Part shown: positions 1,435 to 59,146 of the stretch, piece after piece
Layout: every line of letters starts with the position of its first letter
Numbering within the stretch: position 1 is the first letter of the stretch
Assembly: GCA_016928975.1 (NCBI GenBank)
Contig: JAFGJR010000147.1
Location: forward strand, 93,413 to 157,412
Direction: 5' to 3'
DNA length: 64,000 nt
Source of the DNA: Sedimentisphaerales bacterium
GTDB taxonomy: Bacteria > Planctomycetota > Phycisphaerae > Sedimentisphaerales > SG8-4
Notes under the pieces: generated by a model
Databases searched by the model: none
Told to the model about the DNA's origin: nothing
The model's input: only the letters and a program-made list of their open reading frames with translations
Made by a program: the position numbers and the translations under genes

Positions 1435-1487
1435 GCATGGCAGCCATTGTAGAGAAAGGCCCAGGAAAAGGCAAGCGGACGTCGATC

Positions 1488-1516
1488 TTGACAGGGGCTT
1501 GTTCCGACGGTAACAT
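1488..1516 (+). promoter_or_regulatory. sigma70-type promoter of the toxin-antitoxin pair (predicted leaderless)
   Basis: A perfect TTGACA (1488-1493), a 17-base spacer and TAACAT (1511-1516; 4 of 6 to consensus). Only six bases separate the -10 box from the antitoxin ATG at 1523, which puts the expected transcription start at or beside the A of the start codon. There is no ribosome-binding site in front of that ATG. Confidence 0.6.
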
Positions 1517-1522
1517 GAAGAT

Positions 1523-1750: not shown

Positions 1751-2076
1751 CCCCCATCACCATCCTTCACGAGGCCGAGATCGAGTTATGGGAAGCGGTG
1801 CAGTTCTACGAAAGTAGATGTGCTGGGCTCGGCCTGGACTTCGAGGGAGAGGTCAAGACTGCGGTGGACGCTATCCGGCAGTCTCCTGGTCGGTGGCCGC
1901 TCCAGAAGGACGGCACACGCAGGTACTTAACCCACCGGTTTCCCTACTTCGTCATCTACCTTGTGCACGAAGGTCACGTCTGGATCATCGCGTTTGCCCA
2001 TTGCAGGAGAAAGCCAGGGTACTGGTCTGAGCGTACCAAGAGGGCGAGGACTCGACGTGGACAGCAACGCGAGTAG
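1747..2076 (+). CDS. RelE/ParE-family toxin (109 aa)
   Basis: The size and fold pattern are those of RelE/ParE toxins: an N-terminal helix (HEAEIELWEAVQFYESRCAG), a central helix (LGLDFEGEVKTAVDAIRQSP), and C-terminal strands RRYLTHRFPYFVIYLVHEGH and VWIIAFAHCRRKPGYW. The R-Y-L...F-P-Y...I-Y motif and the closing H-x-R-R-x-P-x-Y-W are typical of the subgroup paired with the antitoxin family encoded just upstream. The RelE subgroup cleaves ribosome-bound mRNA and the ParE subgroup poisons gyrase; the sequence alone does not settle which applies. The two genes overlap by four bases. The basic C-terminal tail (TKRARTRRGQQRE) is longer than usual. Confidence 0.85.
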   Translation: MTPITILHEAEIELWEAVQFYESRCAGLGLDFEGEVKTAVDAIRQSPGRWPLQKDGTRRYLTHRFPYFVIYLVHEGHVWIIAFAHCRRKPGYWSERTKRARTRRGQQRE

Positions 2077-2130
2077 TCAATGTCGCGACCATCTTTGCGA
2101 AGGTCTGAACCGTTGTGACTTTGCGCCGAG

Positions 2131-36770: not shown

Positions 36771-36986
36771 AGGACAGGATGATGGAGCGCAGCGGCTCTG
36801 GAGGCCGCGAAGACACCGTGAGGATGGTTTGGACACGGCCCTGTTCCGCTGCGAGAAGTCAGTCTGCGCTGGCTCCCATCCCGTCTGTTGGCTGCTGACG
36901 GCCTCGGCGGTGCAAAGAGGCAAAGGACCCGACCTCTGATCTGCCGATCCTGCTCACATGCCGGGTCCCTGGAAGGAGTGGTCACC

Positions 36987-39707
36987 ATGAAGTTGTCGAA
37001 CAGCGTGAGGATTCCCTTGCAAGGCACAGGCGCACTGGGCGTCATGGTCTCGCTGATATTATTCCATGCCATCGCTGCCACAGGTCGCACTGGAGATCTG
37101 CCGGCCGTGGAGGGCCAGCGGTCACCGCTTCTGTCCGGGTCGGCTGAGCCTCCTGTTGTCTATGTGGATCGGGATGCCAGCGGGGCGAAGAGCGGACAGT
37201 CCTGGCGTGACGCATTCAAGACCATCCAGGAAGGGATTGACGCCGCTGCCTGGGCGGGTCCAGGGGGCAGCTATGCAGAGGTCTGGGTGGCGGAGGGAAG
37301 ATACGATGAACGTCGCCTCGCAGGCATGGTCGGCGGCCACGGCCAGATTCTCGGCTCTCTGACCCTGATGCCCGGCGTGGCCGTCTACGGAGGATTCGAC
37401 GGCACGGAGACCTGCAGGGACGATCGTGACTGGTTCGCCCATGAGACGATCATCGACGGCTCCACGTCCCGAGGAGGCTACCCCGCATACCACGTCGTCC
37501 TGGGTGCTGATGATGCCATTCTGGATGGCTTCACGATCACAGGCGGGAACGCCAGCTACGCCTACGAGTCATCCGGGGGAGGTATGCTCAATAGCTATTG
37601 CTCACCCGTTGTGGCCAACTGTACGTTCCTTCGCAACAAGGCCTCCGACAACGGCGGCGGTGGCATCGCAAACGTCAAGGCTTCACCACGGATCATCAAC
37701 TGCCGCTTCTATGGCAACGACGGTGGTTGGCACGCCGGTGGGATCTACGACCACGAGTCGTCGTCGGAAATCGTGAACTGCTTATTCGTCGGGAACCAGG
37801 CGGACGAGGGCGGCGCCATGCTGTGTCGTCAGCCTGCTGCGACAAGAGTGATCAACTGTACCTTCGTCTGCAACCAGGCCATCGGGGGTGGGTGCCTCTT
37901 CTCGGGGCTGGGGGGCGATTCCGTACGTCAGATCAGCTTCCTGAATTCCGTTCTCTGGGCAGACGAGGCCACCAAGGGAGGTGACGAGGTGATGGGCCGC
38001 ACCGATATCGTATCGTTCTCCCACTGTTCCATCGAAGAGGGGATCAACGGTCCAGGGTTCTCAGGGAACCAGGCCATCGACGCCGGCTCGAATCGTGACG
38101 AGAATCCGCGTTTTGTGCGGATGCCGGATCCCGGAGCGGATGGGACGTGGGGAACCGCAGACGACGACTACGGCGACCTGCGTCTCACCGAGGATTCGAC
38201 GCTGATCAACAAGGGCGATGACGACGTCCTGCCCGCGGACGTGACGACGGATGTCGCTCGCCATCCCCGCATCATGCTCGGGTACGTGGACCTGGGGGCA
38301 TATGAGTATATCGGGACGACAGATTTGTGGGCGGTGACGCTCTATCGAGGATGGGACGATCTGCCCGATGGGGCGGCGGTTGAGCCGGGCGAGGCGATTC
38401 GCATCGGGTCGCACACCCTCACACCAAGTCCGTTGCTCTATGTCGAGGCGTCGTTCAGCAACGGGGATTCGACCCGTGCGCTCGAGCTGAATGCCGGCGG
38501 CCTTGCTTACGATGTCCTGTGGCACCCGACGAGGCCCGGCTCACTGCCGGACGGTCGCATTGAGATCACCGTCTGTGCGGCGGAGTGTGAGGGCTGCACT
38601 CCCGGCCGGTGCGTCACCCGCTGGGTTACGATGACCGGCCAGACCGACAAGGCAGATCTGGTTGGCAACGACTTCTCCGCGTCGGCCTGCTCTCTCAATT
38701 GGGGCGATACGATACAGATCGATTTCACGGTCCTCAACCAGGGGGCCGCCGCCGCAGGCGCCACGAAAACCGCTTTCTACCTTTCTCGGGATTCTGTCTT
38801 CTGGACGGAGGGCGACGTCTGGCTGGCACAGGCGGACATCCCCTTGTTGGAGGCAGGGGGCCTGTATCGGAGCCAGGTATCAGTGCAACTCCCCGCCGCG
38901 CCGCCTGACGGCTTTCAAGCGCCCGGAACCTGCTACGTGGGCATGGTCGTCGACACCACAGGAAGCGTCCCGGAGGACTTCGAGCATAACAACATGAACC
39001 GGGGCGAGGGAGCCGATATGGCCAAAGTGACGCTGGGCCAACCAGCCCCGGTCACGATCTTCAACATCAGATCCTTTGCGAACCGCGGTATCGTCAACCT
39101 CGTGGGCTCGGCGCTCATCACGGGCGGACGGCTGCGTCTCACCGATGCGCAGGACTGGCTTGCCGGCGGCGCCTGGTATGAGCAGGATGTTCTGGTGCGC
39201 CATGGTTTTGAGACTGTGTTCGATTTCCAGGTGGACCGCGACGGCGCCGACGGTTTCGCGTTTGTCATTCAGAACGTCGGCACAGCAGCCTTAGGAACCA
39301 ACTCGTACAACCAGGGTTACGACATTCCGAACTCGATCGCCATCGAATTTGACACGTGGTACAACCCCGAGATCGGAGACCCGAGCGAAAACCACGTCAG
39401 CGTGCAGACGCAAGGCCCGCAGAAGAACAGCCCGGACCACAGGTTCTCCCTCGGGTGCACCTCTGGCGTTCCTTTTCTCTCCGACAATCGGCGCCATACT
39501 GCCAAGATCTCGTACGCACCCGGCCAGCTCCGTGTCTTCGTGGATGACATGGAGCAACCCATTCTGGCGGTCCCCATGACCCTGGAGCCCTGGCTGTCTT
39601 CCACGGATGGATGGGCGTTTGTCGGTTTCACGGCATCAACAGGAGGAGCCTCGGAGATCCACGACATCCTATCGTGGTCATTGGCAGTGAACAGCGCGTC
39701 CTACTGA
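36987..39707 (+). CDS. secreted beta-helix/CARDB/L-type-lectin protein
   Basis: 906 residues from ATG 36987, with GGAAGGAG eight bases upstream; the frame is open to 36888 but without support. The signal peptide is MKLSNSVRIPLQGTGALGVM followed by VSLILFHAIAATG. Domains: a right-handed beta-helix of the choice-of-anchor Q type (VVYVDRDASGAKSGQSWRDA; repeated strands such as VANCTFLRNKASDNGGGGIA, IINCRFYGNDGG, IVNCLFVGNQADEGGAMLCR) to about residue 400. A CARDB domain follows (ADLVGNDFSASACSLNWGDT, EDFEHNNMNRGE). The C-terminal L-type lectin domain has DGFAFVIQNVGTAALG and SIAIEFDTWYNP, with Asp and Asn at the usual Ca/sugar positions. It probably binds or modifies polysaccharide outside the cell. 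No lyase triad was identified. Confidence 0.85.
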   Translation: MKLSNSVRIPLQGTGALGVMVSLILFHAIAATGRTGDLPAVEGQRSPLLSGSAEPPVVYVDRDASGAKSGQSWRDAFKTIQEGIDAAAWAGPGGSYAEVWVAEGRYDERRLAGMVGGHGQILGSLTLMPGVAVYGGFDGTETCRDDRDWFAHETIIDGSTSRGGYPAYHVVLGADDAILDGFTITGGNASYAYESSGGGMLNSYCSPVVANCTFLRNKASDNGGGGIANVKASPRIINCRFYGNDGGWHAGGIYDHESSSEIVNCLFVGNQADEGGAMLCRQPAATRVINCTFVCNQAIGGGCLFSGLGGDSVRQISFLNSVLWADEATKGGDEVMGRTDIVSFSHCSIEEGINGPGFSGNQAIDAGSNRDENPRFVRMPDPGADGTWGTADDDYGDLRLTEDSTLINKGDDDVLPADVTTDVARHPRIMLGYVDLGAYEYIGTTDLWAVTLYRGWDDLPDGAAVEPGEAIRIGSHTLTPSPLLYVEASFSNGDSTRALELNAGGLAYDVLWHPTRPGSLPDGRIEITVCAAECEGCTPGRCVTRWVTMTGQTDKADLVGNDFSASACSLNWGDTIQIDFTVLNQGAAAAGATKTAFYLSRDSVFWTEGDVWLAQADIPLLEAGGLYRSQVSVQLPAAPPDGFQAPGTCYVGMVVDTTGSVPEDFEHNNMNRGEGADMAKVTLGQPAPVTIFNIRSFANRGIVNLVGSALITGGRLRLTDAQDWLAGGAWYEQDVLVRHGFETVFDFQVDRDGADGFAFVIQNVGTAALGTNSYNQGYDIPNSIAIEFDTWYNPEIGDPSENHVSVQTQGPQKNSPDHRFSLGCTSGVPFLSDNRRHTAKISYAPGQLRVFVDDMEQPILAVPMTLEPWLSSTDGWAFVGFTASTGGASEIHDILSWSLAVNSASY

Positions 39708-40602: not shown

Positions 40603-42276
40603 ATGCCAGTGACGAACGAATCCGGGACCCTCAATGGGGGCAAACGGGATAGCGGCATCTGCACGGCGACCGGCCAACATGAAACGGGACGCTCTTTTTC
40701 TTCACGCTGCCGCGAGGGACGACTTGTGTCGTTCCAGGTGCATGCAGGGGGACCGCGTCCGACTCAGTACGTTGGGCAGATCGACGCCTGCATGTGTGTT
40801 GATGGGCAGGTTCCTGCCCTCGATGCGATTCTCGATCCACCGGTCGATGGCGAGTCGCCTGATGCCGACGGCGCATACCGCGTGCAATGGGCAGGCCATG
40901 ACGTGGTCGTCAGACGATACGTCTACGCAGGCCTCTTTCATTCGGTGGGCCGCATAATGAAGGGCTCTCTCGCCCGTCGCGCCTGGAACAAGGGACACCG
41001 ACTGCTGGAGCTGGGTGTTCCGACCCCGTGGCCTGTTGCGTGCATCGATGAGTACCAAGGCCTGCTGCTGTGCCGATCCTACCTGGTGACCGAGCACGTG
41101 GACGGGCGTCGGATTGACGAGTTGCTGAAAGACCCGAGCGTGCCATCTGGCGTCAAGCGACGGGTCATCCGCCAGGTCCTGAAGCTCATTCGTAGGTTGA
41201 ACACACATGGCATCCATCACGGCGACGTGAGACATACGGGCGTCATGTGCCAAGACGGGAGGGTCGTGCTAACGAATCTGGACGGCGTGGCGATTCACAG
41301 CCTCCCGTGGCTCCACCGGCGATGGTGGGGCCGGGGCGTTGCAGGGCTCCTGGAGCGAATCCTCGCGTGGCTGGCGGCAGGGGACGGGGCCTGTGAGGTG
41401 AACGACGCGACTCACACAGACGACCGCCGGCATCACACGCCGGACTTCATGTCTCTCTCACTACCGGCCATCGGGGGCGTGCTGTGGGTGAGCCCGGACG
41501 TTCGCGACCAGGAGATGGAAGAGGCTCTCTCCGCTGGGCCACAGGCTCTCGCGGAGCGCTTTCAGGCGGAACCCGTTCAATCATCGCAGGCCTCCCGCGT
41601 ATGGCGGTTCGCGGCAGTCTTTCATGGCGAGAGAGTGGGTGTGTATCTGAAGGAGTACCTGGATCGGTCAGCTCTCGATCGGATCAAGCTGGTGGTGCGC
41701 CCCGACCGGGCGATGCGTGCGCTGCGAGCCTCGCGGATGCTCGTCGAGCATGGTTTTCGCGCGCCCGAGGTGATCGCCGTCGGCCGTGGCCGGGCAAGCA
41801 CAGTGGCACGACGCTCCACGTGCTTCATGATCACTCGTGAGGTCACAGATGCCGTGCCGATCTACAACTATCTGACCCCCGATCCGGTTGAACCGGCCCC
41901 GTGCTCGTTGCGGCAGAGGCGAGAGCTGCTTCGGCAGCTTGGTCACATGGTCGGCCGGATGCACAGCGAGGGCATCGTCCACGGAGACCTCAGGCCGGGC
42001 AATGTGCTGGCGCGAAGGACAGATGGCCGATGGGAGTTCTTTCTCCTGGACAATGAACGCACTCGCAGGCCGCTGCGCCTCTATGGCTTTCTGCGGAGGA
42101 AGAACCTCGTCCAGATCAACATGTTCCCGCGAGGCGTCTCGCGGACCGACCGGCTTCGGTTCTTCTGTGCCTATGTGCTCCTGAATCCACTTGTGTGCCT
42201 CCATCGGCGACAATGGGCCGACAGAGTCATGACCGTCACACATCGCCGCATGCGGAAGAAGGGCTGGATCGTCTAA
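40603..42276 (+). CDS. tandem LPS-core kinase fusion: inactive N-terminal and intact C-terminal Kdk/Waa-type domains
   Basis: 557 residues from ATG 40603. Both halves have the fold of LPS core and small-molecule kinases (KdkA/WaaP/InaA type). Domain 1 (about 60-260) aligns with the stand-alone kinase at 46706, but the ATP-site Lys is Arg104 (HDVVVRRY), the catalytic-loop Asn is Gly213 (HGDVRHTGVM) and the metal-binding Asp is Asn225 (VVLTNLDG). Only the HGD Asp208 survives. Domain 2 (about 335-540) keeps Lys350 (GVYLKEYL), HGDLRPGNVLA (Asp462, Asn467) and LLDNERTR (Asp483). I infer a pseudokinase fused to an active kinase, probably phosphorylating Kdo or heptose in the core. The promoter predicts a leaderless mRNA. 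The 3' end overlaps the convergent methyltransferase gene by four bases. Confidence 0.82.
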   Translation: MPVTNESGTLNGGKRDSGICTATGQHETGRSFSSRCREGRLVSFQVHAGGPRPTQYVGQIDACMCVDGQVPALDAILDPPVDGESPDADGAYRVQWAGHDVVVRRYVYAGLFHSVGRIMKGSLARRAWNKGHRLLELGVPTPWPVACIDEYQGLLLCRSYLVTEHVDGRRIDELLKDPSVPSGVKRRVIRQVLKLIRRLNTHGIHHGDVRHTGVMCQDGRVVLTNLDGVAIHSLPWLHRRWWGRGVAGLLERILAWLAAGDGACEVNDATHTDDRRHHTPDFMSLSLPAIGGVLWVSPDVRDQEMEEALSAGPQALAERFQAEPVQSSQASRVWRFAAVFHGERVGVYLKEYLDRSALDRIKLVVRPDRAMRALRASRMLVEHGFRAPEVIAVGRGRASTVARRSTCFMITREVTDAVPIYNYLTPDPVEPAPCSLRQRRELLRQLGHMVGRMHSEGIVHGDLRPGNVLARRTDGRWEFFLLDNERTRRPLRLYGFLRRKNLVQINMFPRGVSRTDRLRFFCAYVLLNPLVCLHRRQWADRVMTVTHRRMRKKGWIV

Positions 42277-47423: not shown

Positions 47424-48092
47424 ATGAGCGATATGACGCAACTGATAGCCGGACGCACCATCCGAGATCGGATGGAGATCATCGGTCCGCTCGTGCGTGA
47501 CCGCAAGACCCTGGACCTCGGCGTGGTCGACAGCCGCCGCAGCCGGCAGGACACTGCCGAGCGTCTGGAGAAGTCGCCGGGTCTGCTATTCCGTCGCATC
47601 TGTGAGATCAACCCGGACACCGTAGGGATCGACATTGACGAGAGGGGCGTCGAGATCCTCCGACAGCAGGGCTTTCATACACGGACTGCCGACGCGATGG
47701 TCATGGATTTGGGCGAGCGGTATGACGTGATCGTCGCCGGCGAGATCATCGAACACCTGGCGAATCCGGGCCTGTTTCTGTGCAACATGGCAAGACATCT
47801 TACGCCCAAGGGAACGCTGGTCCTGACAACGCCGAATCCGTTTTATGTGGGCCAGGTCCGCAAGATCTGGCGTTATGGCCGGCCGCAGGTGCACGAGGAG
47901 CACATCTGCTGGTTTGATCCGATCACGCTGTGTCGCCTCTGCCGGGTGTCGCGCTTGAACGCGTATGCGGTGTATTGGATCAAGTCCCACGGCCGCAAGG
48001 CCTGGAAGACTTGGCCGGGGCTGTTCCGGGGGTATTTTTCCGAGTCGTTCCTGCTGCTGGCGAGGCCGGCCGGCCCGGAGCTATGCGGATAG
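47424..48092 (+). CDS. class I SAM-dependent methyltransferase
   Basis: 222 residues. The SAM fold is visible: motif I region KTLDLGVVDSRRSRQDTAER (glycine motif degenerate), acidic ribose-binding end of strand 2 TVGIDIDERGVEILRQQGF, motif II YDVIVAGEIIEHLANPGLFL and LTPKGTLVLTTPNPFYVGQV. This fits the Methyltransf_11/23 group acting on sugars or lipid-linked intermediates. It pairs with the upstream kinase gene; its 3' end overlaps the convergent waaP by 12 bases. Confidence 0.8.
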   Translation: MSDMTQLIAGRTIRDRMEIIGPLVRDRKTLDLGVVDSRRSRQDTAERLEKSPGLLFRRICEINPDTVGIDIDERGVEILRQQGFHTRTADAMVMDLGERYDVIVAGEIIEHLANPGLFLCNMARHLTPKGTLVLTTPNPFYVGQVRKIWRYGRPQVHEEHICWFDPITLCRLCRVSRLNAYAVYWIKSHGRKAWKTWPGLFRGYFSESFLLLARPAGPELCG

Positions 48093-48884
48093 CTTCCTGC
48101 GCAGAGCGAAGGCGACGCGTTCGACGCGCGGCCAGAACCGTCCGTGCTGTCGGAGCGCGCCGCGCAGCGGCATCCGCTCGTACGCTCTGATGAAGCGCAG
48201 TCGGTCAGTCCTGGTCAGGCCGACATCCATGGCTGAGAAATACAGGCCGGCCAGATCCTTGATGATCCATCGCTTCGGCGTGCGACGTCGCAGTTGGGCC
48301 CGATGCAAGTCAATGAGGTGAAGGTGCAGGTCGCCCGGGTCCAACCGCTCGCAGCCTCGCGAGGTATCCAGGCGAAAATGACACAGGTAGCAGTCTCGAT
48401 GATTCATGCCGTGCGCGTGCATGCGTTGCACAATGGAGGCGACTTGCTCCGTCAATGCCTTTCGAAGGGCAAAGGGCGGCGGCTGTGATTTCCATGCCGC
48501 ACACAGATCCTCCAGGGTCGTTGTGCCTTTGAGCTCCTCCGTGATCAGGAACGATCGAATACGTGCCGGACTGCTTCCTACCTGTCCGAATGCCACCGGG
48601 GTCATCGTGCGAATGCCGATCCGCCGCAAGAGGTCTATCGCTTGCCACTCGCTGCGCGCTCCCAGGATAGGAAGTCTCAGATAGAGCAGGTTCTTGATGA
48701 TCTCACGCCAGCCGACGCCGCAGTGGATCTTTGCGAAGTAGTGGCGTCCGTCAACGGCGAAGCGGACAGTTCTGCGAGATTTCATCCGGCGAAAGACCTC
48801 GCCGTCGAGGCGCTCGGCCTGGTCAAAGGGGTCCCGTCCCCTCCACAAGGTGTCAAAGACACTCGATAGCCAAATCTGTCTCAT
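48081..48884 (-). CDS. waaP: LPS core heptose(I) kinase WaaP (RfaP)
   Basis: 267 residues. WaaP phosphorylates the first core heptose, which stabilises the outer membrane through cation bridging. The signature is unusually clear: HYFAKIHCGVGWREIIKNLL (Lys52), then LRLPILGARSEWQAI, the catalytic loop MNHRDCYLCHFRLD (Asp164) and LHLIDLHRAQLR (Asp192). The length equals the enterobacterial enzyme. It follows waaG by 49 bases on the same strand, the same order as in proteobacterial waa operons. Its stop overlaps the methyltransferase gene on the other strand. Confidence 0.92.
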   Translation of the reverse strand: MRQIWLSSVFDTLWRGRDPFDQAERLDGEVFRRMKSRRTVRFAVDGRHYFAKIHCGVGWREIIKNLLYLRLPILGARSEWQAIDLLRRIGIRTMTPVAFGQVGSSPARIRSFLITEELKGTTTLEDLCAAWKSQPPPFALRKALTEQVASIVQRMHAHGMNHRDCYLCHFRLDTSRGCERLDPGDLHLHLIDLHRAQLRRRTPKRWIIKDLAGLYFSAMDVGLTRTDRLRFIRAYERMPLRGALRQHGRFWPRVERVAFALRRKLSA

Positions 48885-50106: not shown

Positions 50107-51624
50107 TCATGCCTCGGCAAGGAAGTAGTCGGAAATCACGCCCATGAACCGGTTGTATTTGATCGCGTAGTGCGACAGCCCCTGGGAGCAGAATCGCCGT
50201 GAGTATTCCGCATCCCGCTGCCGCAGACCCTCTGCCACGCGAGGCCACTCGGCCTCACTCATCTGTAAGATCTCATCCGCCCTGGCCCGGTAGAAGTCCG
50301 CAGTCGGCAGATCGGAATGTGCGTTCACGAACCAGGGCATGATCCGGCCGATCTTCTTCAGCAGGAAGTTGTGCTCGGGGCCGAATTCAAGGCATGAGTC
50401 ATCGGTAAAGTTGTGGAGCCGTTCCATCTTCTCCTTGTCGATATACCCGCCTTCGAGGCTGATCTGGTGGGCCCGCGTGCCGGGGAAAGGAAAGAAATAC
50501 GTCCAGCGAAACCGTCCGGGCCTGGCCCGTCCGAGCAGGCGGATCGTGTCGAACACATCCTCTCTGCCTTCGTGGGGAAAACCGAGGATGACGAACACGG
50601 AGCTGTGCATCCCGTGGCGATGGACAGCCGCAATGGCCTCGACGATGCTGTCGTTGGTCATGTGGCGGTTGAGGATCGTCCGACGGATCGTCGGGCTGCC
50701 GGACTCCACGCCGAACTTGACGATCCGGCAGTTCGCCGCCGCCAGCAGACTCGCGCACTCGTCGTCGAAGAAACCCACGTGCGCATTGACGACGAACGGG
50801 ATCGTCGTCACCTTGCGATAGGCGCCGCAGAACTCGCGAACGTATGCCTTGTCGAACGTGAACAGGTCGTCGTCAAAGATGAACATGCGGATATTGCGGT
50901 AGTTCTTGAGCAGGTACTCGATTTCCTCGATCATCTGTGCGACACTGAACCGGCGGATGTAGTTCAGGCCCGCGAATCCGGAGTGCAGGTCCTCCTTGTA
51001 CGCTTCCACCATGACGTGATTGAAGCAATAGGTGCACGAGAAGGGACATCCGCGCGACGCCATCAGGCCGACCCAGCCTTGCTTGATATCGATGAGCCGC
51101 TGGAGGTCCATGCTCTCATAATCCTTCAATGGCAGCGTAGTCAGTTCCGGCAGGGGCCCGACGGGATTGACCCTGATCCGGTCGTCCTGCCTGTAAGCCA
51201 GGTTTGGCATGTCCTGCACGCTCCGGCCTCGCTCCAGTGCATTCACGAACCGGGGGAATGCGTTTTCGCACTCGCCGCGAAAGACGTAGTCAAACAGCGC
51301 GGTCCTGAGAATCTCCTCGGCGTTCGCCAGCGCATGTATGCCGCCGAGAACGAATGGGATCTTGAATCGCGGCCTGGCCCATTTGGCCAGGGTCTGCGTG
51401 TACGCCCACTGGTTCGTCACTACGGAAAACGCCAGGATGTCCGGCTGCTCGCACGCGATCCGGTCGACGAACTGCGACTCGGTGGGCAGCGGCGCGATTT
51501 CCTCGCACAGTTGCCAGAAGGCTACGTGGTGCCCGGTCCTTCTCAGGACCGCGGCCATGTGGGCGACGCCGTAGTTGAAGCCCACCTGGGAGTCTGTTGA
51601 CGGATAGATGAAGAGTACCTTCAT
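50107..51624 (-). CDS. B12-binding-domain radical SAM protein
   Basis: 505 residues. The N-terminal cobalamin-binding-type domain (MKVLFIYPSTDSQVGFNYGV, PDILAFSVVTNQWAYTQTLA, IPFVLGGIHALANAEEIL) precedes the radical-SAM core with the 4Fe-4S motif ASRGCPFSCTYCFNH (CxxxCxxC), FIFDDDLFTFDK and KFGVESGSPTIRR. The N-terminal domain lacks an obvious D-x-H-x-x-G, so B12 may be bound base-off or not at all. Members modify lipids, sugars or antibiotics. The gene overlaps its upstream neighbour (ATGA, 51621-51624) and ends one base before the waaG frame, so it is embedded in the LPS core operon and may alter a core sugar or lipid A. This role is inference. Confidence 0.85.
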   Translation of the reverse strand: MKVLFIYPSTDSQVGFNYGVAHMAAVLRRTGHHVAFWQLCEEIAPLPTESQFVDRIACEQPDILAFSVVTNQWAYTQTLAKWARPRFKIPFVLGGIHALANAEEILRTALFDYVFRGECENAFPRFVNALERGRSVQDMPNLAYRQDDRIRVNPVGPLPELTTLPLKDYESMDLQRLIDIKQGWVGLMASRGCPFSCTYCFNHVMVEAYKEDLHSGFAGLNYIRRFSVAQMIEEIEYLLKNYRNIRMFIFDDDLFTFDKAYVREFCGAYRKVTTIPFVVNAHVGFFDDECASLLAAANCRIVKFGVESGSPTIRRTILNRHMTNDSIVEAIAAVHRHGMHSSVFVILGFPHEGREDVFDTIRLLGRARPGRFRWTYFFPFPGTRAHQISLEGGYIDKEKMERLHNFTDDSCLEFGPEHNFLLKKIGRIMPWFVNAHSDLPTADFYRARADEILQMSEAEWPRVAEGLRQRDAEYSRRFCSQGLSHYAIKYNRFMGVISDYFLAEA

Positions 51625-53240
51625 TGGGGTCGTGCCATGGGCTCCGTTGCATCGTTCTTCGCTGGCTCCCGTGTTGGCTTGTCGCGACGCCGGGCCGCAG
51701 GCACTTCCCGAACGCGAGCGTGGAGCTTGTAGTCCCTGCTGGCCCGTTCCTGCATGATTCGCGAGATAATCTCATCTACGGCGACATGCTCCGGGTCAGC
51801 CAGCGTGTTGACGTGAACGATCCTGCAATCGGTGTCGCCGCATGCGCTCCAGCGGCGCACGAAATTCTCATTGTTGCTGCCGGCGAACACCGTCACCGTC
51901 GGTGTCCGCGTGGCGGCGGCGATATGTTGGCACGCGGAGTCATACCCGATGTACTCGTCGCTTCGCGCAATCATCGCGGCCATCTGACCGATCGTAGACT
52001 CGACGGCGATGACCCCGTGGGACGGCACGGCGGAATCCATGTTTGCGAAGGAGGTCTCCACGGCTGCAAATCCATGCTCCCGAAGGTCCGCTGCCAGCAG
52101 AGCCGTGCGCTCCAGCTCGTCGGCGCCAAAGCCACTGTCGAGGAGAATCACCGTGCCGGGAATGGCGACGAGTGTTCGCAGCAGCCGTTTCTCAAATTCC
52201 AGGCCCACGCGCTTGCGCGGATTCTGGCCGACCCCCAGGTTGATCGTGATGATCCGCCGCGCGCCGCCCGCCCGCAGCGCATCGACTTTCCTGCCGGCTT
52301 CGCGTCTGAATGCGTCCGGCACCCACACTGCGGGATAGCAGAAGACATCCGTCCCAAACACGTCTCGCATCCAGTCGTTCGTCCACTCGGCCATGCACCT
52401 GCCGTTGGCGGACAACATGTGGTGTCGCGTGTTCAGGAACAGGTAGCGATCGCCTCGCGTCAGCGGCAGGACGCCGAGTTGCGAGATGCGCGAATCAGGA
52501 TCGATCACGAGGAGGCTTTCCTCGCCGCCGCCAGCCGCTTCCTCTCGCAAGACTTCCAGTGTCGCGTGCCAACTGGCAAATCGTTCGAACAGCCCTCCGC
52601 GCCGGGCGTAGCTGAGTTCTCGAATCCGTACGTCCGCGTTACCGCCGAACAGGCCGGAGAGCTTGTGGCTGCCGACGATGACAATCTCTGCCGCCGGAAA
52701 CAGTCGTCGCAGATGCTGAATCATCACGCTGAGGATGGCGACGTCCGCGCCGAGGGTCACGCGGGACAACAGCAGGATCTTGCGTGGCGGCCTACGCTTG
52801 TCGCAGCGATACTGTCGCAGGTGGGTGGCGATCGCCCGCTGGTACAACTGGTCGGAGGACGTGACGCCGAACTCGGTCAATTGCCGGTCGAGGCTTCTGC
52901 CCGCCGGGATTGTCCGGCAGTGCGAGATCACCTGGCACATGACTCGACTGTATACCTCGACGGGCAAGTCCTCGAAGTCGTCGCAGAGCTTCTCCACGAT
53001 GATCTCGAACAGCGCGCCAGAGGCGATGCTATTCAGGTCGGCCTTCGAGTGGAACGTTGCCATCTCGCAGAGCAGGCCGATGTACTCAGCCACATATGCG
53101 CCGCTCTGGAAGTAGCTGTCAATGAAGGAGAAGGCGACTTGCCGGGCGAGGTGATTCAGCTCACTGGGATTCGTCTGCCCCTCTCTAAGTCTGAGCCATC
53201 GGTTCCTGTAGAGCGAAGGGTCCATATCATCTGCACGCAT
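51621..53240 (-). CDS. GT9-like (heptosyltransferase-family) protein with N-terminal extension
   Basis: 539 residues, about 190 more than a typical heptosyltransferase. Residues 1 to about 150 form a helical domain of unknown type (NHLARQVAFSFIDSYFQSGA, GALFEIIVEKLCDDFEDLPV). From about 155 the GT-B fold begins (KILLLSRVTLGADVAILSVM, AEIVIVGSHKLSGLFGG). The C-terminal donor half includes ITINLGVGQNPRKRVGLEFE, VILLDSGFGADE and YDSACQHIAAATRTPTVTVF, matching the S/T-D-T-G-x-x-H-x-A-x-A-x-x-x-P region of GT9 proteins. ATG 53240 (overlapping waaF by 14 bases) is preferred to 53225. It is a candidate second heptosyl- or hexosyltransferase; donor unproved. Confidence 0.65.
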   Translation of the reverse strand: MRADDMDPSLYRNRWLRLREGQTNPSELNHLARQVAFSFIDSYFQSGAYVAEYIGLLCEMATFHSKADLNSIASGALFEIIVEKLCDDFEDLPVEVYSRVMCQVISHCRTIPAGRSLDRQLTEFGVTSSDQLYQRAIATHLRQYRCDKRRPPRKILLLSRVTLGADVAILSVMIQHLRRLFPAAEIVIVGSHKLSGLFGGNADVRIRELSYARRGGLFERFASWHATLEVLREEAAGGGEESLLVIDPDSRISQLGVLPLTRGDRYLFLNTRHHMLSANGRCMAEWTNDWMRDVFGTDVFCYPAVWVPDAFRREAGRKVDALRAGGARRIITINLGVGQNPRKRVGLEFEKRLLRTLVAIPGTVILLDSGFGADELERTALLAADLREHGFAAVETSFANMDSAVPSHGVIAVESTIGQMAAMIARSDEYIGYDSACQHIAAATRTPTVTVFAGSNNENFVRRWSACGDTDCRIVHVNTLADPEHVAVDEIISRIMQERASRDYKLHARVREVPAARRRDKPTREPAKNDATEPMARPQ

Positions 53241-54270
53241 TCAGCAATCGCTCCGCCGCCATGAACACTTCGGCCGGCCGGATGTCTTTCATACATTCAT
53301 GCCCCCGGGGGCAGACTCTCAAGTGACAGGGCGAGCAGTCCATCTCCCTTCGCAGGACCACGGTGCGCTCCAGGTTGGCGTTGGTATACCGCGGGTCCGT
53401 AGGCCCCGTGATCACGACCGCCGGGACATCCAACGCCACTGCGTAATGTCGCGGACCTGTATCGTTCGTAATGAACAGGTTGCATCGTTTCACCATCGGT
53501 TTGAGCATCTCCAGGTCGATCCTGTCCGGCCGGCTGTCGATGACAGGGGCCCGCGTCCGATCCAGAATGGCCTGGAGGATCTGGTCCTCGCCCGGCCCGC
53601 CGAACAGAATGATCTTTGCGTGGAGGTTCCCGTAGCACAGATCGGCCACCTCGGCAAAGTACTCCGGAGGCCAGCACTTGGACGACCCGAAGCTGGCACC
53701 GGGATTCAAGCCAACCAGGAGGTCGTTTTCTCCGACGCCGTACTTGCGAAGCAGGGCCTCTCCACGCTGATGAAGCTCCTGCCCGACATACAGCCGCGGC
53801 CTCGGCTGCTCCGGCACCCGGAAGCCAAGCCAGCGGCAAACCTCCAGATAATACTCGATCATCGGGGTCGGGACAATCCCCTGCCCGTTGCGCAGCGGCG
53901 TCGGGCCGCCAGACAGGAGCACGTCTCGCCACTCGCGGCGGTATCCGTACAGCTTCCGGACGCCGCTCAGACGCATCGTCAACGCGGAATGCCACGAGTT
54001 CGTCAGGAGGATCGCGGCGTCCGGAGACCAGGCTCGAAGCCGCCCCCGCATCCGGCGAAAATCGGCCCACCACGCATCACTGCCGTCCACGAGCCCGTCG
54101 AACCACGGGCTGTCGGCCACGATGCCCCACGCGTTTCGCTTGAGCACTCCAACGATCCTGGCACGAGGCAGATTGGCGCGCAGACAATCGAAGACGGGCG
54201 TAGCCATGACGATGTCGCCCACCCAGTTCGGGCAGCGTACAGCCAGCGTCTTGATTTCTGCAAGTCTCAT
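53227..54270 (-). CDS. waaF: ADP-heptose:LPS heptosyltransferase II (WaaF/RfaF)
   Basis: 347 residues from ATG 54270. GT9 enzyme that adds heptose II to the inner core. Signature: LAVRCPNWVGDIVMATPVFD at the N-terminus, AILLTNSWHSALTMRLSGVR, GLNPGASFGSSKCWPPEYFA, LFGGPGEDQI and LFITNDTGPRHYAVALDVPA followed by GPTDPRYTNAN. The C-terminal CSPCHLRVCPRGHECM is the typical Cys-rich tail of WaaF relatives. Upstream lies gmhB (about 50 bases), downstream the GT9-like gene (overlap). Confidence 0.93.
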   Translation of the reverse strand: MRLAEIKTLAVRCPNWVGDIVMATPVFDCLRANLPRARIVGVLKRNAWGIVADSPWFDGLVDGSDAWWADFRRMRGRLRAWSPDAAILLTNSWHSALTMRLSGVRKLYGYRREWRDVLLSGGPTPLRNGQGIVPTPMIEYYLEVCRWLGFRVPEQPRPRLYVGQELHQRGEALLRKYGVGENDLLVGLNPGASFGSSKCWPPEYFAEVADLCYGNLHAKIILFGGPGEDQILQAILDRTRAPVIDSRPDRIDLEMLKPMVKRCNLFITNDTGPRHYAVALDVPAVVITGPTDPRYTNANLERTVVLRREMDCSPCHLRVCPRGHECMKDIRPAEVFMAAERLLNACR

Positions 54271-54321
54271 GCCATCACCCACGACGTCGGCCGCCCGGGC
54301 CGGCTCAGTCGGCAGCCATTT

Positions 54322-55308
54322 TCATCGGCGCCAGTTCATAATGTAGAAAGTCAACGCCATCCCTTGCAGCACGGCGGCAAAACCCAGTGCCACAAGCACG
54401 TTCTGATTCGGCTCACGTGAGTTCATCAGCAGCCATAATGCGACGAGCAGACAGAATGGGACGAAGACTTGCAGGATGCCCGCCAGCAGCCTCGTCAGAG
54501 AGAACTCGTCGAACACCTCTCTTTTCTGTAGGAGCCTGAGTTGCTCCAGGATGCCTCCGAGCAACTGCTCCACGGCGTCATCTTCGGCGGGGAGCTGATT
54601 CTCTGTCGAGGATGCCTTCATCGGCGAGCCGCCCGACGCTTCGTCTTGCTGTGGCAATTCGCTCTCTGGGGGCGGTACGACCGGTGCCGGCTCGCTCCTG
54701 TTGGCAAACACAGGCACGATGCGAGCGTCCTGTGCGGATCGATGGTACTTCTTGATGATATTCACGGCTTCCCTCATATTCACAGCAACATGATCCGGCG
54801 TGTTTCGGTCGGTAGTTTCCCAGCTCGTATGAGCGGAGCTGATGAGAATCGTTTTGCACCCCGCGCTTCGGCCCGCCTCCACATCGCGGAGATTGTCTCC
54901 GACCATCCAGGACTTCGCCAGATCGAGATCCAGATCAGTCGCCGCCGCCAGCAGCATGCCGGGCCTGGGCTTGCGCCAATCGCTGTCCTTACGGTACTTG
55001 AGCACTGCCCCATCCGGATGGTACGGGCAGTAGTAGATCGCGTCGAGTGATGCGCCGTTGCGGCAGACTTCCTCTCGCAGCCGTCGGTGAATCTGTTCGA
55101 CAGTCTCCTCTGTGAGGATGCCCTTGGCCACAGCCGGCTGATTTGACACGACGATGGTCCTGTAGCCGAGCGACTGCACCTCCTTGATCGCGTCGGCCGC
55201 GCCGTCCAGCAACTCCACCTGGTCGGGGTGGCTGATGCAGCCCGGATCGCGGATCAGCGTTCCGTCCCGGTCGAAAAATACCGCCGTGCTCGACATGGCC
55301 TCCTGCAT
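54322..55308 (-). CDS. gmhB: D-glycero-D-manno-heptose 1,7-bisphosphate 7-phosphatase fused to a C-terminal membrane anchor
   Basis: 328 residues; GmhB alone is about 185. The N-terminal HAD-IIIA domain has TAVFFDRDGTLIRD (nucleophile Asp), TIVVSNQPAVAKGIL, the zinc-site region YYCPYHPDGA and KSWMVGDNLRDVEAGRSAGC. Between about 200 and 260 is a Pro/Glu-rich linker (EPAPVVPPPESELPQQDEAS), then an amphipathic helix and two transmembrane segments (LVALWLLMNSREPNQ region and VLVALGFAAVLQGMALTFYI). The enzyme removes the 7-phosphate in ADP-heptose synthesis. The anchor would hold it at the inner membrane. Start 55308 or 55296; AGGAGG lies inside the first codons, so the choice is unsure. Confidence 0.88.
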   Translation of the reverse strand: MQEAMSSTAVFFDRDGTLIRDPGCISHPDQVELLDGAADAIKEVQSLGYRTIVVSNQPAVAKGILTEETVEQIHRRLREEVCRNGASLDAIYYCPYHPDGAVLKYRKDSDWRKPRPGMLLAAATDLDLDLAKSWMVGDNLRDVEAGRSAGCKTILISSAHTSWETTDRNTPDHVAVNMREAVNIIKKYHRSAQDARIVPVFANRSEPAPVVPPPESELPQQDEASGGSPMKASSTENQLPAEDDAVEQLLGGILEQLRLLQKREVFDEFSLTRLLAGILQVFVPFCLLVALWLLMNSREPNQNVLVALGFAAVLQGMALTFYIMNWRR

Positions 55309-55342
55309 CCACTACATACTTGGGCTTCTGCAAAACGGAAAT

Positions 55343-55927
55343 TCATGTACAGAAACACTGTTCCACAAGATCGCAGATGATGTGGTACGCCAGTTGATGG
55401 ATCTCCTGGCTGCGTGCCGTCACCGGCGAATCTGCACACAAACATATATCGGCCAGCGCCTCCAGTTTGCTGTTCTTTTTGCCGGTGAAGGCTATGACGC
55501 GCGCGCCCTTGCGTTTAGCCACTTCGGCGGCTTTGACCACGTTGGGTGAGGCACCGCTGGTGGACAGGCCCCACAGGACATCTGCCGGTTTCAGGTGCGC
55601 CTCGGCCTGCCGGGCGAAGATCTCCTCGTAGGCGTAGTCGTTCGCGACACAGGTCAGGACCGAGGTATCCGTAGACAGAGCCACCGCCGGCAAGGGCCGC
55701 CGCTCTGTTCGGAAACGGCCCACCATCTCGCCGGCAATGTGCTGGGCGTCCGCGGCGGAGCCTCCGTTGCCGCAGAGATACAGGGTGCCGCCATTTCTGA
55801 ATGCCTCGACAATGGCCTCCGACGCGGCCATGAGGACGCCGGCCGCCTCCCGTTCGAACTCCGCGACCATCTTCTTGTGGATCTCCACCGCGTCGCGGAT
55901 CCTGCTCGGACTGATCTCACCCATCAC
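55343..55927 (-). CDS. gmhA: phosphoheptose isomerase
   Basis: 194 residues. GmhA converts sedoheptulose 7-phosphate to D-glycero-D-manno-heptose 7-phosphate. The SIS-domain signature is complete: TLYLCGNGGSAADAQHIAGE, GRFRTERRPLPAVALSTDTS, the Ser-rich WGLSTSGASPNVVKAAEVAK and SQEIHQLAYHIICDLVEQ with the active-site Glu/His. The GTG start at 55927 overlaps the hldE stop by four bases; ATG 55924 is also in frame. Third gene of the lpxK-hldE-gmhA-gmhB-waaF series. Confidence 0.95.
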   Translation of the reverse strand: MMGEISPSRIRDAVEIHKKMVAEFEREAAGVLMAASEAIVEAFRNGGTLYLCGNGGSAADAQHIAGEMVGRFRTERRPLPAVALSTDTSVLTCVANDYAYEEIFARQAEAHLKPADVLWGLSTSGASPNVVKAAEVAKRKGARVIAFTGKKNSKLEALADICLCADSPVTARSQEIHQLAYHIICDLVEQCFCT

Positions 55928-57432
55928 GTATCCGCCTTCAAGGCTTTCATCTTCTCAATTGTCGAAGTCGAGCTCCTGCCTTCGATCAACGGCGCGAGCA
56001 TCACCTTGCCGCCGTAGGATTCCACAAACTCCCAGCCGACCACGCCCTGCTTGTCGCGCCAGTCGCCGCCTTTGACCAGGACATCCGGCCTGACCTCTTT
56101 GACAAGACCGAGCACGCTCGGATCGTCGAAGATCGTGATCAGATCCACTGTCTCCAGGCCGGATAGGACGGCCGCACGGTCGTACTGGTTGTTGATCGGT
56201 CGGTCCGGCCCCTTGAGGGCGCGAACAGAGCCGTCGCTGTTGAGCCCGACGATGACCACGTCGCCCTGGGCCCGGCAAAACCGCAGGTAATCGATATGCC
56301 CGCGGTGGATCACGTCGAAGCAGCCGTTGGCGAACACGATGGTCTGGCCCCGGCTGCGACGCCATTTCAACTCCTCCAGCAGCGCATCGAGCGAGCGAAG
56401 CTTGGTGCTCCTGACGCCGTATTGCTCTGCGATCTCGTGCTCGATCTCTGAAACGGTTACTGTGACCGCCCCGAATTTGCCGACTTCAATGCCACCGGCG
56501 ATATTGGCCAGATGCACGGCGGTCAGATAGCTGCTGTCGCCCGCCAGGCTCACCGCCAGGGTCGCCAGGACCACATCCCCCGCACCGGTCACGTCATAGA
56601 CGCTCCGAGCCCGGGTGGGCACCAACTCATTCATGTCTTTCGTGGCCAGGCAGGCGCCTTCTCTGTCAAGCGTGACTACGACGGCCTCCAGTGCCAGATC
56701 ATCGAGCAGCCGTCGCGCAGCCCGTGCCGCATCGGAGGCGGTTTCAATGGCGAATCCAACAGCAGCAGCGGCTTCCTGGCGACTCGAAGTCAGCAGTGTG
56801 GCACCGCGGTATTGCGAGTACTCCCGTCCGATGGCCGGATCGACGAGCACCTTCCGACCTGCGCCCCGGGCCAGCGAGATCATCCGTCGGCAGAGCGCCG
56901 GACCCAGCAGGCCTTGATTACAGTCCTGCAAACACACGACGTCCGCCTGTGCGATGCTCTGCTCGTAATGCCTCAGGACCTGATCGCTGGCCGCCGAAGG
57001 CAAAGACTCAGACGCCTCCTGATCGATTCGCAACAACTGCTGCTTGTGCCTGTGCTGGGCCAAGCCGATCAGCCTTTGTTTTGTGGTAGTAAGGCGGCCG
57101 GGAACCTCGTGTAGGCCGGAGGTGTCGGCCCCATGTGTCGCCAGCTTCTCGCGGAGGATTTCGCCGTGGCCGTCTTGCCCGGTGACGCCGATGCACAGGG
57201 GCGTCGCGCCCAAGGCTGCCACACTGGCCGCCACGAATGCCGCGGCGCCGCATCGGTACTCCGTCTGCGTCACCTTCAAGACCGGCACGGGAGCTTCGGG
57301 GCTGATGCGCACGGCGTCGCCGTACACGTACACGTCCAGAGCAAAGTCGCCGACGACCACGATCTTCGGCGAGCCGAGATTCCCTATTGTTTTTAGCAGC
57401 GTTTCGTACATATGCGACAACTGAGCCGGCAC
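55924..57432 (-). CDS. hldE: bifunctional heptose-7-phosphate kinase / heptose-1-phosphate adenylyltransferase
   Basis: 502 residues with both classic HldE domains. The PfkB-type kinase (about 1-330) has KIVVVGDFALDVYVYGDAVR, RCGAAAFVAASVAALGA and the catalytic DVTGAGDVVLATLAVSLAG. The nucleotidyltransferase (about 355-500) has IVFANGCFDVIHRGHIDYLR (HxGH) and VIVGLNSDGSVRALKG with VLVKGGDW. It makes heptose 1,7-bisphosphate and later ADP-heptose. The kinase glycine loop is GAAAF rather than GGAAN, a small departure to note. GTG 57432 starts five bases after lpxK; MYETLL at 57411 is the alternative. Confidence 0.95.
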   Translation of the reverse strand: MPAQLSHMYETLLKTIGNLGSPKIVVVGDFALDVYVYGDAVRISPEAPVPVLKVTQTEYRCGAAAFVAASVAALGATPLCIGVTGQDGHGEILREKLATHGADTSGLHEVPGRLTTTKQRLIGLAQHRHKQQLLRIDQEASESLPSAASDQVLRHYEQSIAQADVVCLQDCNQGLLGPALCRRMISLARGAGRKVLVDPAIGREYSQYRGATLLTSSRQEAAAAVGFAIETASDAARAARRLLDDLALEAVVVTLDREGACLATKDMNELVPTRARSVYDVTGAGDVVLATLAVSLAGDSSYLTAVHLANIAGGIEVGKFGAVTVTVSEIEHEIAEQYGVRSTKLRSLDALLEELKWRRSRGQTIVFANGCFDVIHRGHIDYLRFCRAQGDVVIVGLNSDGSVRALKGPDRPINNQYDRAAVLSGLETVDLITIFDDPSVLGLVKEVRPDVLVKGGDWRDKQGVVGWEFVESYGGKVMLAPLIEGRSSTSTIEKMKALKADT

Positions 57433-57437
57433 AATGC

Positions 57438-58559
57438 CTACTTCCCGGGTTCCTGCAATCGCAGCATCTTACCATCGAGGACGCGGTCAATCAAGGCAGC
57501 CAGGCGCTCCGCCCCGGCCACGAACTCCATCTCGACGGCCAGGTACACCATCGGCGGATCACCCTGGGGCGGGATCAGACGCACGATCTTCGTCCAGTCC
57601 TTCTGAGTGGTGACGATGTATTCGGCGTTGCACTCCCGGGCTCGCCGGTGAATCTCGCGGAGACTGTCGTTCGTGTACGCATGGTGGTCATCGAAGCGTC
57701 GAGACGCGACGAGCATGCAGCCAACGCGTCGGATGGTATCGAAGAACGCCTCGGGGTTGCCCAGGCCGCAAAAAGCATACACCCGCTTGCCTCGCAACTC
57801 CTCCAGACCGATCTCCGTCCCGGCGCCGACCGCATCGACCGGCGCATGGATGGCCGTTGCGATAACCACATCCGGCTGGATTTGACGCACTTGGCCTTCG
57901 ATCTGTGCCAGCGTCTCCTCGGAGACCTGGTCGCAGCGGGTGATCACCACCGCGTTGGCCCGTTGCAATCCGATGAGCGGTTCACGCAGCAGCCCCCGCG
58001 GAAGCAGCCTGCCATAGCCGAACGGCAACGTGGCATCGATCGTTACGATGTCGAGGTCGCGGGCCAGCCGCCGATGCTGGAATCCGTCATCGAGGATCAG
58101 CACGTCCGCGCCGCGAGCAGTGATTGCCTGCCTCGCCCCGGCGACGCGGTTCGGATCTACAATGACGTTCACGTCCGGGCAGTTGGCGGCGAGCACGGCC
58201 GGCTCGTCGGACAGCTCGCCTTTTCGCGTCTTGTACCCCCGAGTGAGGACGGCGCACCGTCGCTGCTGCCGCCGCAGAACCCGGCACAGCCAGACCACCA
58301 GCGGCGTCTTGCCTGTGCCACCGACGGTCAGGTTGCCCACGCTGATTACCGTCGCGCTGACTCTGCGTGCCCGGAACAAGCCTCGCGAGTACAGGCTATT
58401 GCGCATGTGGACAACAAGTGAATATGGCCACGACAGTAACACCAATAGCAGACGCAGAAAGATGGCGCGAGGGCCCGACGTATGCCCGGACACGAGATTG
58501 CGATATGCTTCTTGATTCAACTGATGGTTCCCACTCTGGCTCTGCGATCTTCGATCCAT
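57438..58559 (-). CDS. lpxK: tetraacyldisaccharide 4'-kinase LpxK
   Basis: 373 residues from ATG 58559; a TTG at 58520 just before the usual family start (N-Q-E-A-Y-R) is equally possible, and the first residues look non-homologous. LpxK adds the 4' phosphate to the lipid A precursor. The N-terminal membrane helix AIFLRLLLVLLSWPYSLVV is followed by the Walker A VISVGNLTVGGTGKTPLVVW, then LTRGYKTRKGE, DVLILDDGFQHRRLARDLDI and FCGLGNPEAFFDTIRRVGC. First gene of the minus-strand LPS operon. Confidence 0.93.
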   Translation of the reverse strand: MDRRSQSQSGNHQLNQEAYRNLVSGHTSGPRAIFLRLLLVLLSWPYSLVVHMRNSLYSRGLFRARRVSATVISVGNLTVGGTGKTPLVVWLCRVLRRQQRRCAVLTRGYKTRKGELSDEPAVLAANCPDVNVIVDPNRVAGARQAITARGADVLILDDGFQHRRLARDLDIVTIDATLPFGYGRLLPRGLLREPLIGLQRANAVVITRCDQVSEETLAQIEGQVRQIQPDVVIATAIHAPVDAVGAGTEIGLEELRGKRVYAFCGLGNPEAFFDTIRRVGCMLVASRRFDDHHAYTNDSLREIHRRARECNAEYIVTTQKDWTKIVRLIPPQGDPPMVYLAVEMEFVAGAERLAALIDRVLDGKMLRLQEPGK

Positions 58560-58567
58560 AAATCGCA
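58557..58567 (-). repeat. second copy of the TGCGATTTATG motif
   Basis: On the minus strand TGCGATTTATG, identical over 11 bases to 18641-18651. The terminal ATG is the possible lpxK start. Flanking ATCGCAGA and GTAGATC look like diverged neighbours of the same AT-rich motif. Confidence 0.4.
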
Positions 58568-58576
58568 GACCGTAGA

Positions 58577-59146
58577 TCACAGTCCTACAAGCATGCTATC
58601 CGCGACCTCGCGAGCCTTCCCGGCCCCCAGCAGGATCTCCACGAGCTTGAGCGCAAACGCGATGGCGGTACCCGGACCCTGGCTGGTCACGCAGTGGCCG
58701 TCGACGACGACGGGCTCATCGGTCGCATAGGCCGGGTTCAGTCTATCGCGCATGGACGGGTAGCAGGTCGCCCGGGTCTTGTGCAGCAATCCGTGCGGCT
58801 GCAATACGACCGCCGGCGACGCGCAAATGGCGCCGTACAGGCGTCCCGCCTCCTTCTGTTGCTTGAGTTTCTCGATCAGCGGACCACAGTCTCTCAGGTG
58901 CTCGGCGCCCGGCATCCCCCCGGGCAGGGCGATGCAATCGTAGGTCTGATTCGTACAATCGCAGATCCTGGCGTCCGCCACCAGCTTCATACCCCGACTG
59001 GCAACGACGTGCAGAGACGTGGAATCGTGCGTTTCTACCGATGCGACGGTGACATCGGCGCCGGCCCGGCGCAGCGTATCGATGATGCACGCCGCCTCGA
59101 TCTCTTCCGTTCCATTCGCAATTGGAACCAGCACTCGCTTGGCCAT
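58577..59146 (-). CDS. DJ-1/PfpI family protein
   Basis: 189 residues, ATG 59146 with GGGAGG upstream. DJ-1 type: VLVPIANGTEEIEAACIIDT with the conserved Glu, DCIALPGGMPGAEHLRDCG, and the nucleophile Cys in the elbow YGAICASPAVVLQPHGLL; the closing SQGPGTAIAFALKLVEILLG is characteristic. Bacterial members (YajL-like) act as glyoxalases or protein/nucleotide deglycases; which activity applies here cannot be told. It is 17 bases upstream of lpxK on the same strand. Confidence 0.9.
   Translation of the reverse strand: MAKRVLVPIANGTEEIEAACIIDTLRRAGADVTVASVETHDSTSLHVVASRGMKLVADARICDCTNQTYDCIALPGGMPGAEHLRDCGPLIEKLKQQKEAGRLYGAICASPAVVLQPHGLLHKTRATCYPSMRDRLNPAYATDEPVVVDGHCVTSQGPGTAIAFALKLVEILLGAGKAREVADSMLVGL

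Follow-up and report, generated by a model that had tools for sequence, protein, structure and literature searches.

The window, by which we mean the whole 64,000-nucleotide stretch of DNA that was analyzed, contains an open reading frame in which two kinase-like domains, referred to here as domain 1 (N-type) and domain 2 (C-type), are joined in tandem (Table 1). The PF06293 (Kdo/WaaP) profile matched two stretches of the encoded protein, with a score of 100 bits compared to a cut-off of 21.3. The ATG at 40603 was backed by similar starts in relatives (MPVTNES, MPLTNES, and MRCTNES); the database copy of the protein (P0002) has 494 amino acids and starts 63 residues downstream of this ATG. Codon composition was alike in the degenerate and the intact domains (GC3, 0.72 versus 0.74). 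Upstream of the locus, a 939-amino-acid open reading frame (36888 to 39707, plus strand) appeared by eye to encode a secreted protein with repeats and a lectin-like part.

The assignment of the gene to an LPS core locus, made in the preliminary description of this DNA from the sequence alone, was borne out by the LPS core and lipid A genes found nearby: RfaP, two GT9 genes, a HAD phosphatase, a PfkB-cytidylyltransferase fusion, and LpxK. Evidence that Planctomycetes make LPS, with lipid A genes that are essential, is given in one study (PMC10632474).

Table 1. Features of the window and, in the last three lines, degenerate N-type domains in other sequences, with positions in those sequences
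Feature	Position	Strand	Remarks
Tandem LPS-kinase-like protein, 557 aa	40603..42276	+	Open frame; degenerate in domain 1, intact in domain 2
Domain 1, N-type kinase fold, residues about 41-255	40723..41367	+	Predicted catalytically dead
Linker, residues about 256-300	41368..41502	+	Model of low confidence in part: pLDDT under 50 at 260-281
Domain 2, C-type WaaP-like kinase	41503..42273	+	K350, HGD460-462, N467, D483 intact
K104R, ATP-anchoring Lys position (= WaaP K51)	40912..40914	+	Codon AGA
K210R, catalytic-loop Lys (= WaaP Y165 position)	41230..41232	+	Lys in 98/101 N-type domains
N213G, second-metal ligand position (= WaaP H168)	41239..41241	+	Codon GGC
D225N, DFG-type metal Asp position (= WaaP D188)	41275..41277	+	Codon AAT
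Standalone intact N-type kinase, 233 aa	46706..47407	+	Proposed carrier of domain-1 activity
RfaP-type LPS core heptose(I) kinase	48081..48884	-	NF011703, 364 bits vs cut-off 170
Two GT9 (heptosyltransferase-like) genes	51621..54282	-	51621-53240 weak, 30.6 bits; 53227-54282 clear, 99 bits
HAD phosphatase, PfkB-cytidylyltransferase fusion (HldE-like), and LpxK genes	54322..58580	-	Part of the LPS core/lipid A locus
L089, degenerate N-type domain	1507-3024	+	Architecture C-N
L146, degenerate N-type domain	1435-2889	-	Architecture N behind another segment
L002 (= P0027), degenerate N-type domain	9872-11368	+	Architecture N-C

Catalytic residues of the two domains

Domain 1 was confirmed to align closely with the intact kinase encoded at 46706, with 45% identity over residues 93 to 239 (E = 1e-40 in a single comparison), and the three substitutions previously noted in it, K104R, N213G, and D225N, were all present (codons in Table 1). 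Further changes relative to relatives were K210R, R123L, R116G, and H108Y. A Lys in the first strand, present in 94 of the 97 N-type domains that could be counted (4 of the 101 domains, P0027 included, begin too near the end of the open reading frame), was lost as well. Around this strand domain 1 was four residues shorter in alignment A1, in which the fusion protein of the window is P0001, and the exact place of the shortening depends on the alignment. No Lys able to substitute for the lost one was seen nearby in the domain-1 sequence. The loss goes beyond chance, as K104, D208, N213, and D225 were each conserved in 98 of the 101 profile-covering N-type domains.

By sequence, a kinase is considered a pseudokinase if at least one of the catalytic Lys, the HRD Asp, and the DFG Asp is lost. 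Domain 1 is a pseudokinase by this definition, with the Lys and the DFG-type Asp gone and H-G-D present, and it also departs from the PF06293 catalytic-residue set (R104, G213, and N225, with HGD present). Its positions were matched to those of Pseudomonas aeruginosa WaaP by motif spacing, which placed N213 at H168, K210 at Y165, and D225 at D188; K104 corresponds to K51. In the WaaP study, no growth was obtained when K51A, H161A, D163A, Y165A, H168A, or D188N replaced the native protein (PMC6147952). Domain 1 is altered at four of these required positions, and its Asp-to-Asn change is identical to D188N. Because the matching WaaP changes K51A, H168A, and D188N each abolish growth, domain 1 is very probably catalytically inactive. 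The suggestion that the first half is a pseudokinase fused covalently to an intact LPS-type kinase is very probably correct.

The catalytic set of domain 2 was complete, with residues for the PF06293 Lys (K350), H-x-D (HGD460-462), Asn/His (N467), and DFG-type Asp (D483), and these were kept in 90/90 C-type domains that scored above 150 bits and covered 180 profile positions. The earlier statement that the second domain keeps all key residues held for this set but not quite for E78, the partner Glu of the catalytic Lys in WaaP, whose position is mostly Ala in C-type domains. When the position was located by hand count back from a shared Gly rather than by structural superposition, C-type domains (position 373; n = 90) had A in 77, S in 8, D in 3, T in 1, and G in 1, and N-type domains (position 127) had G, S, C, A, N, V, or L, being nonacidic in 101/101.

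Domain 2 was nearest to WaaP/RfaP, with a profile score of 57 bits, an E value of 1.4e-15 to 6dfl in a PDB sequence search with A1, and WaaP/RfaP as the best among the matches listed in a fold search (Foldseek). It has the Lys, H-x-D, and DFG-type Asp in common with WaaP (PF06293; NF011703; PDB 6dfl). However, it differs from WaaP in having Asn for His168, in belonging to a type with mostly Ala at the E78 position, and in being fused to a second kinase; the fusion scored below the RfaP cut-off (57 versus 170 bits), and the window contains a separate true RfaP at 48081. KdkA (NF002475), of the same PF06293 fold family, was matched weakly, with 51.1 bits by the fusion and 30.7 bits by the 46706 kinase, both far under the cut-off of 142. 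Because both cut-offs were failed, the fusion was filed under neither RfaP nor KdkA. The atypical kinases Bud32/PRPK and RIO differ in context from these LPS-locus genes, and the 46706 kinase scored 31.1 bits versus a Bud32 cut-off of 188. Database copies of P0004, P0008, P0010, and other such kinases carry the name tRNA threonylcarbamoyl transferase component Bud32, which is doubtful because the window protein scores far below the Bud32 cut-offs.

In a literature search with limited coverage of subscription journals, no paper among those listed was recognized as describing an LPS pseudokinase fusion. The words lipopolysaccharide, Kdo, Planctomycet, tandem, WaaP, and fused were all absent in a word search of PMC12599244, as were tandem, Planctomycet, and pseudokinase in one of PMC4702295. 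Among the papers listed, only PMC3281104, on a selenoprotein kinase-like domain, contains all three of the terms pseudokinase, lipopolysaccharide kinase, and WaaP.

Relatives of the fusion and the N-type domain family

A search of a set of 5.8 billion proteins, in which the 7,997 candidates sharing the most words were scored, yielded 28 matches: the window's own copy, 26 two-domain proteins that entered A1, and P0029, a 915-amino-acid heptosyltransferase-kinase fusion that was excluded from A1. A search with domain 1 only and an alignment-based search (7,996 candidates scored) found no additional N-C fusion. K104, D208, N213, and D225 were all kept in 25 of the 26 relatives, one of which (P0019) has Tyr for His206. 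The only degenerate relative was P0027 (MAG KBE65_06610, Phycisphaerae), with a Lys-to-Arg change and the HGD lost. In P0029, a GT9 heptosyltransferase is joined to two kinase stretches.

For a wider view, N-type domains were collected from a range of genomes, and 101 distinct ones spanning the profile entered a census; the incomplete L017 and L028 were dropped, and identical domains were counted once (L001 = P0005 and L002 = P0027). Intact domains made up 29/31 in the N-C architecture, 7/8 in C-N, 2/2 in N-C-N (both in P0019), 43/45 where the domain lies behind another long segment (a class assigned by open reading frame length), and 15/15 where it stands alone. The five failures were P0001, P0027, L089 (in which HGD has become HKA), the largely degenerate L146, and L163, which a contig end truncates. 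Degenerate domains numbered 4/85 in open reading frames longer than one domain (86 domains minus the truncated L163) versus 0/15 among standalone ones, which is not significant (p = 1.0).

According to the preliminary description, the pseudokinase-kinase arrangement was a layout in its own right, one that fusions with intact first-domain residues would speak against. Such fusions were the rule. The usual layout is kinase-kinase, with first-domain residues intact in 25/26 relatives in A1 and in 29/31 N-C domains, and the three substitutions were not conserved. A pseudokinase-kinase design of the family is rejected in view of these intact relatives. Because nearly all relatives found keep both halves, the fusion in the window looks like a local loss in a family of modular enzymes and not like a purpose-built regulatory design.

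The N-type domain has been shuffled among several settings: alone, N-C, C-N, N-C-N, and behind a third kinase-like half (L093, L099, L102, L103, L015, L019, L032, and P0019). The upstream half in L093, L099, L102, and L103 was recognized by eye as a third kinase type, with weak profile matches. The fusion open reading frame of L001 (9149 to 11596, plus strand) has an extra N-terminal segment of ∼370 residues with no Pfam match.

P0001 and P0027 have the N-C order and K104R in common; a Gly at 213 in P0027 depends on the placement of a 5-residue gap. When the two were held as sisters, the arrangement was not rejected for the N domain (p = 0.19) and was weakly rejected for the C domain (p = 0.04). 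In the C-domain tree, P0001 fell in a well-supported set (99/98) with the intact P0003, P0005, P0018, and P0020. It is possible that P0001 and P0027 share one loss that was kept. At least three domain losses are likely to have taken place, and possibly four.

The two domains of the fusion may also have different ancestries, the N domain being like those of P0004 and P0009 and the C domain like that of P0003. This mosaic origin was favored by site counts in five comparisons (e.g., 8:24 versus 57:10, p = 7e-9), with groups that were picked after the trees had been viewed. In AU tests, a grouping of the P0001 C domain with P0004 and P0009 was rejected (p = 7e-6) and a wider group was not (p = 0.098); for the N domain, P0001 with P0003 was not rejected (p = 0.27). 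These results are only suggestive of a difference in ancestry between the two domains.

A second N-type kinase in the window

Two N-type domains lie in the window: that of the fusion, which is very probably dead, and the intact 46706 kinase. In contrast, 15/15 genomes chosen for holding N-type domains had one N-type region each, standalone or fused; in G001, G003, and G306, a second match came from the C-type half of the fusion already counted. Of 89 genomes belonging to one family (that of G001), 58 had an N-type match, which was single in 56/58. The exceptions were G320, with a second, partial match, and G419, with two pieces on different contigs.

The standalone N-type kinases closest to the 46706 kinase were those of G283, G356, G439, and G437 (65 to 73%). 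In these four genomes, no domain-2 match was stronger than E = 1.1e-7, and in G437 and G283 the top one was the RfaP gene. The two-kinase fusion was present in G001 and G002. Judged by a housekeeping protein of the isopropylmalate dehydrogenase type, the window is at a similar distance from most of these genomes: the match was 88% to G356, 87% to G283, 86% to G001, 85% to G439, and 84% to G002, and only 37% to G437. The 46706 kinase grouped with the standalone kinases of G283 and G356 (support, 100/95), apart from the fusion. A recent duplication of domain 1 as the source of the 46706 kinase is ruled out by this grouping and by the position of the fusion domain inside the N-C clade.

In a simple reading, the two-kinase fusion occurs here in a lineage that has an N-type kinase of its own, which would make the fused N domain redundant, and redundancy with the 46706 kinase is proposed as the likely reason for the loss in the window genome. 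Redundancy does not hold as a general cause of such losses: G002 (the genome of P0027), G306, and G344 have degenerate N domains, and no second N-type match was found in their multicontig assemblies of unstated completeness.

Among the 89 genomes, RfaP scored over its cut-off in 9 and a C-type kinase (119 bits or more to domain 2) was found in 32. Only G002 had both, 8 genomes had RfaP only, 31 had a C-type kinase only, and 49 had neither, which is not significant as a sign of mutual avoidance (p = 0.15). The window is a further case with both RfaP over the cut-off and a C-type kinase. No association of dead N-type domains with a true RfaP is claimed: such domains occurred in 2/9 genomes with RfaP versus 1/44 without (p = 0.07), in a hand-compiled comparison that scored G344 as RfaP positive on a match cut by a contig end and under the cut-off and that left 5 of the 58 genomes (G238, G419, G009, G288, and G413) unscored.

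Constraint on domain 1 and its possible role

Near-invariant columns were defined from the 25 intact relatives in A1; the counts were redone on A1, and a 32-sequence realignment in which rows L003, L005, and L006 looked misaligned was set aside. In P0001, 13/55 of these columns were changed in domain 1 versus 0/59 in domain 2, and in P0027 25/55 and 1/59 were changed. The highest domain-1 deviation outside these two was that of P0019 (9/59). Substitutions seen only in the window lineage numbered 38 in 171 domain-1 columns versus 12 in 229 domain-2 columns. Within domain 1, P0001 kept 49/50 hydrophobic columns and 26/38 conserved polar or charged identities, the latter compared to 35/38 in the intact P0003. 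A substrate-binding role, as previously suggested for the first half, is disfavored because conserved Arg and His residues (H108Y, R116G, and R123L) were lost along with the ATP site.

AlphaFold2 predicted a kinase fold for domain 1, with a mean pLDDT of ≥80 in 17 of 22 ten-residue blocks (residues 41 to 260); pLDDT was low in blocks 81-90 and 231-260 and in block 201-210, which adjoins the catalytic loop. The whole model had a pLDDT of 79.9 and a pTM of 0.57. Its input alignment consisted of 26 relatives, 25 of them intact, which makes it weak evidence for the fold of this particular copy.

The most probable explanation is that the gene encodes an otherwise bifunctional tandem LPS kinase with one dead half, limited to this lineage, in which domain 1 has decayed and the lost activity probably comes from the 46706 kinase. 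This explanation builds on the residue losses, the intact relatives, the difference in rate between the domains, and the second intact copy. The fusion belongs to a planctomycete two-kinase family in which catalytic residues are normally present in both halves, and from the family and the locus we infer that its ancestor probably acted on two positions in the inner core of LPS, phosphorylating both. In the window lineage, domain 1 has lost its ATP and metal site and conserved basic residues, its hydrophobic core was retained, and domain 2, under full constraint, would be a working WaaP-like kinase. With an intact standalone N-type kinase 4.4 kb away probably supplying the lost activity, domain 1 would have been free to decay, and its role now may be no more than that of a tether or a support for the fold.

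It is also conceivable, though rather unlikely, that domain 1 is a selected pseudokinase, kept to allosterically activate, stabilize, or position domain 2. Consistent with this, domain 1 was retained rather than deleted, its hydrophobic columns were kept to a far greater extent than its conserved polar ones, and its fold is predicted to be intact by the model that leans on intact relatives. The four sequences with degenerate N-type domains (P0001, P0027, L089, and L146) all lie in open reading frames exceeding one domain (p = 1.0), the N-domain tree allows a single loss common to P0001 and P0027, and, according to the WaaP study, WaaP depends on bound acyl-ACP as a partner to be soluble and functional (PMC6147952). 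However, the loss is absent in 25/26 relatives, domain 1 has evolved faster than domain 2, and the downstream kinase forces in-frame retention of domain 1 anyway. Of 7 lineage-only changes at hydrophobic columns, 1 was to a nonhydrophobic residue versus 47% expected, which is not significant as a sign of selection on the core (p = 0.08). In JAK/TYK2 tandems, too, a dead domain precedes an intact kinase domain, and 4oli and 7t6f were among the Foldseek matches listed, as loose matches (rmsd, 21 to 25 over both domains). These proteins belong to a different kinase class, and among the planctomycete fusions a pseudokinase half is not characteristic of the family.

A broader proposal, which we regard as unlikely, is that planctomycete LPS kinases are reshuffled modules whose fused N-type domain became a supporting or regulating pseudokinase in at least three, and perhaps four, lineages, which would be a bacterial carbohydrate-kinase counterpart of the JAK tandems. 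What is documented here is a tandem LPS-type kinase family with interchangeable modules and natural cases of loss of function, and a comparison of genomes with an intact versus a dead first domain would separate the roles of the two halves. Should the dead domains have been retained for a function, they would be an unusual instance, in bacterial small-molecule kinases, of regulation by a pseudokinase; otherwise, the case would be a plain example of a bifunctional enzyme losing one of its halves to decay.

Continued kinase activity of domain 1 by an altered mechanism, using Arg for Lys and other metal ligands, is very unlikely. Domain 1 retains the catalytic Asp of the HGD motif and D227, the second Asp of its NLD motif, and some kinases without canonical residues, such as CASK, WNK, and SelO, are active. 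However, the Lys, Asn, and Asp of the nucleotide and metal sites were lost together, along with the first-strand Lys and with no other Lys nearby, and the three corresponding WaaP changes each failed to support growth (PMC6147952). An assembly or sequencing artifact, which might be considered because the source is possibly a metagenome assembly, is extremely improbable, as all 557 codons are open, the substituted codons are AGA, GGC, and AAT, the coding composition is normal, and the accelerated change is confined to domain 1.
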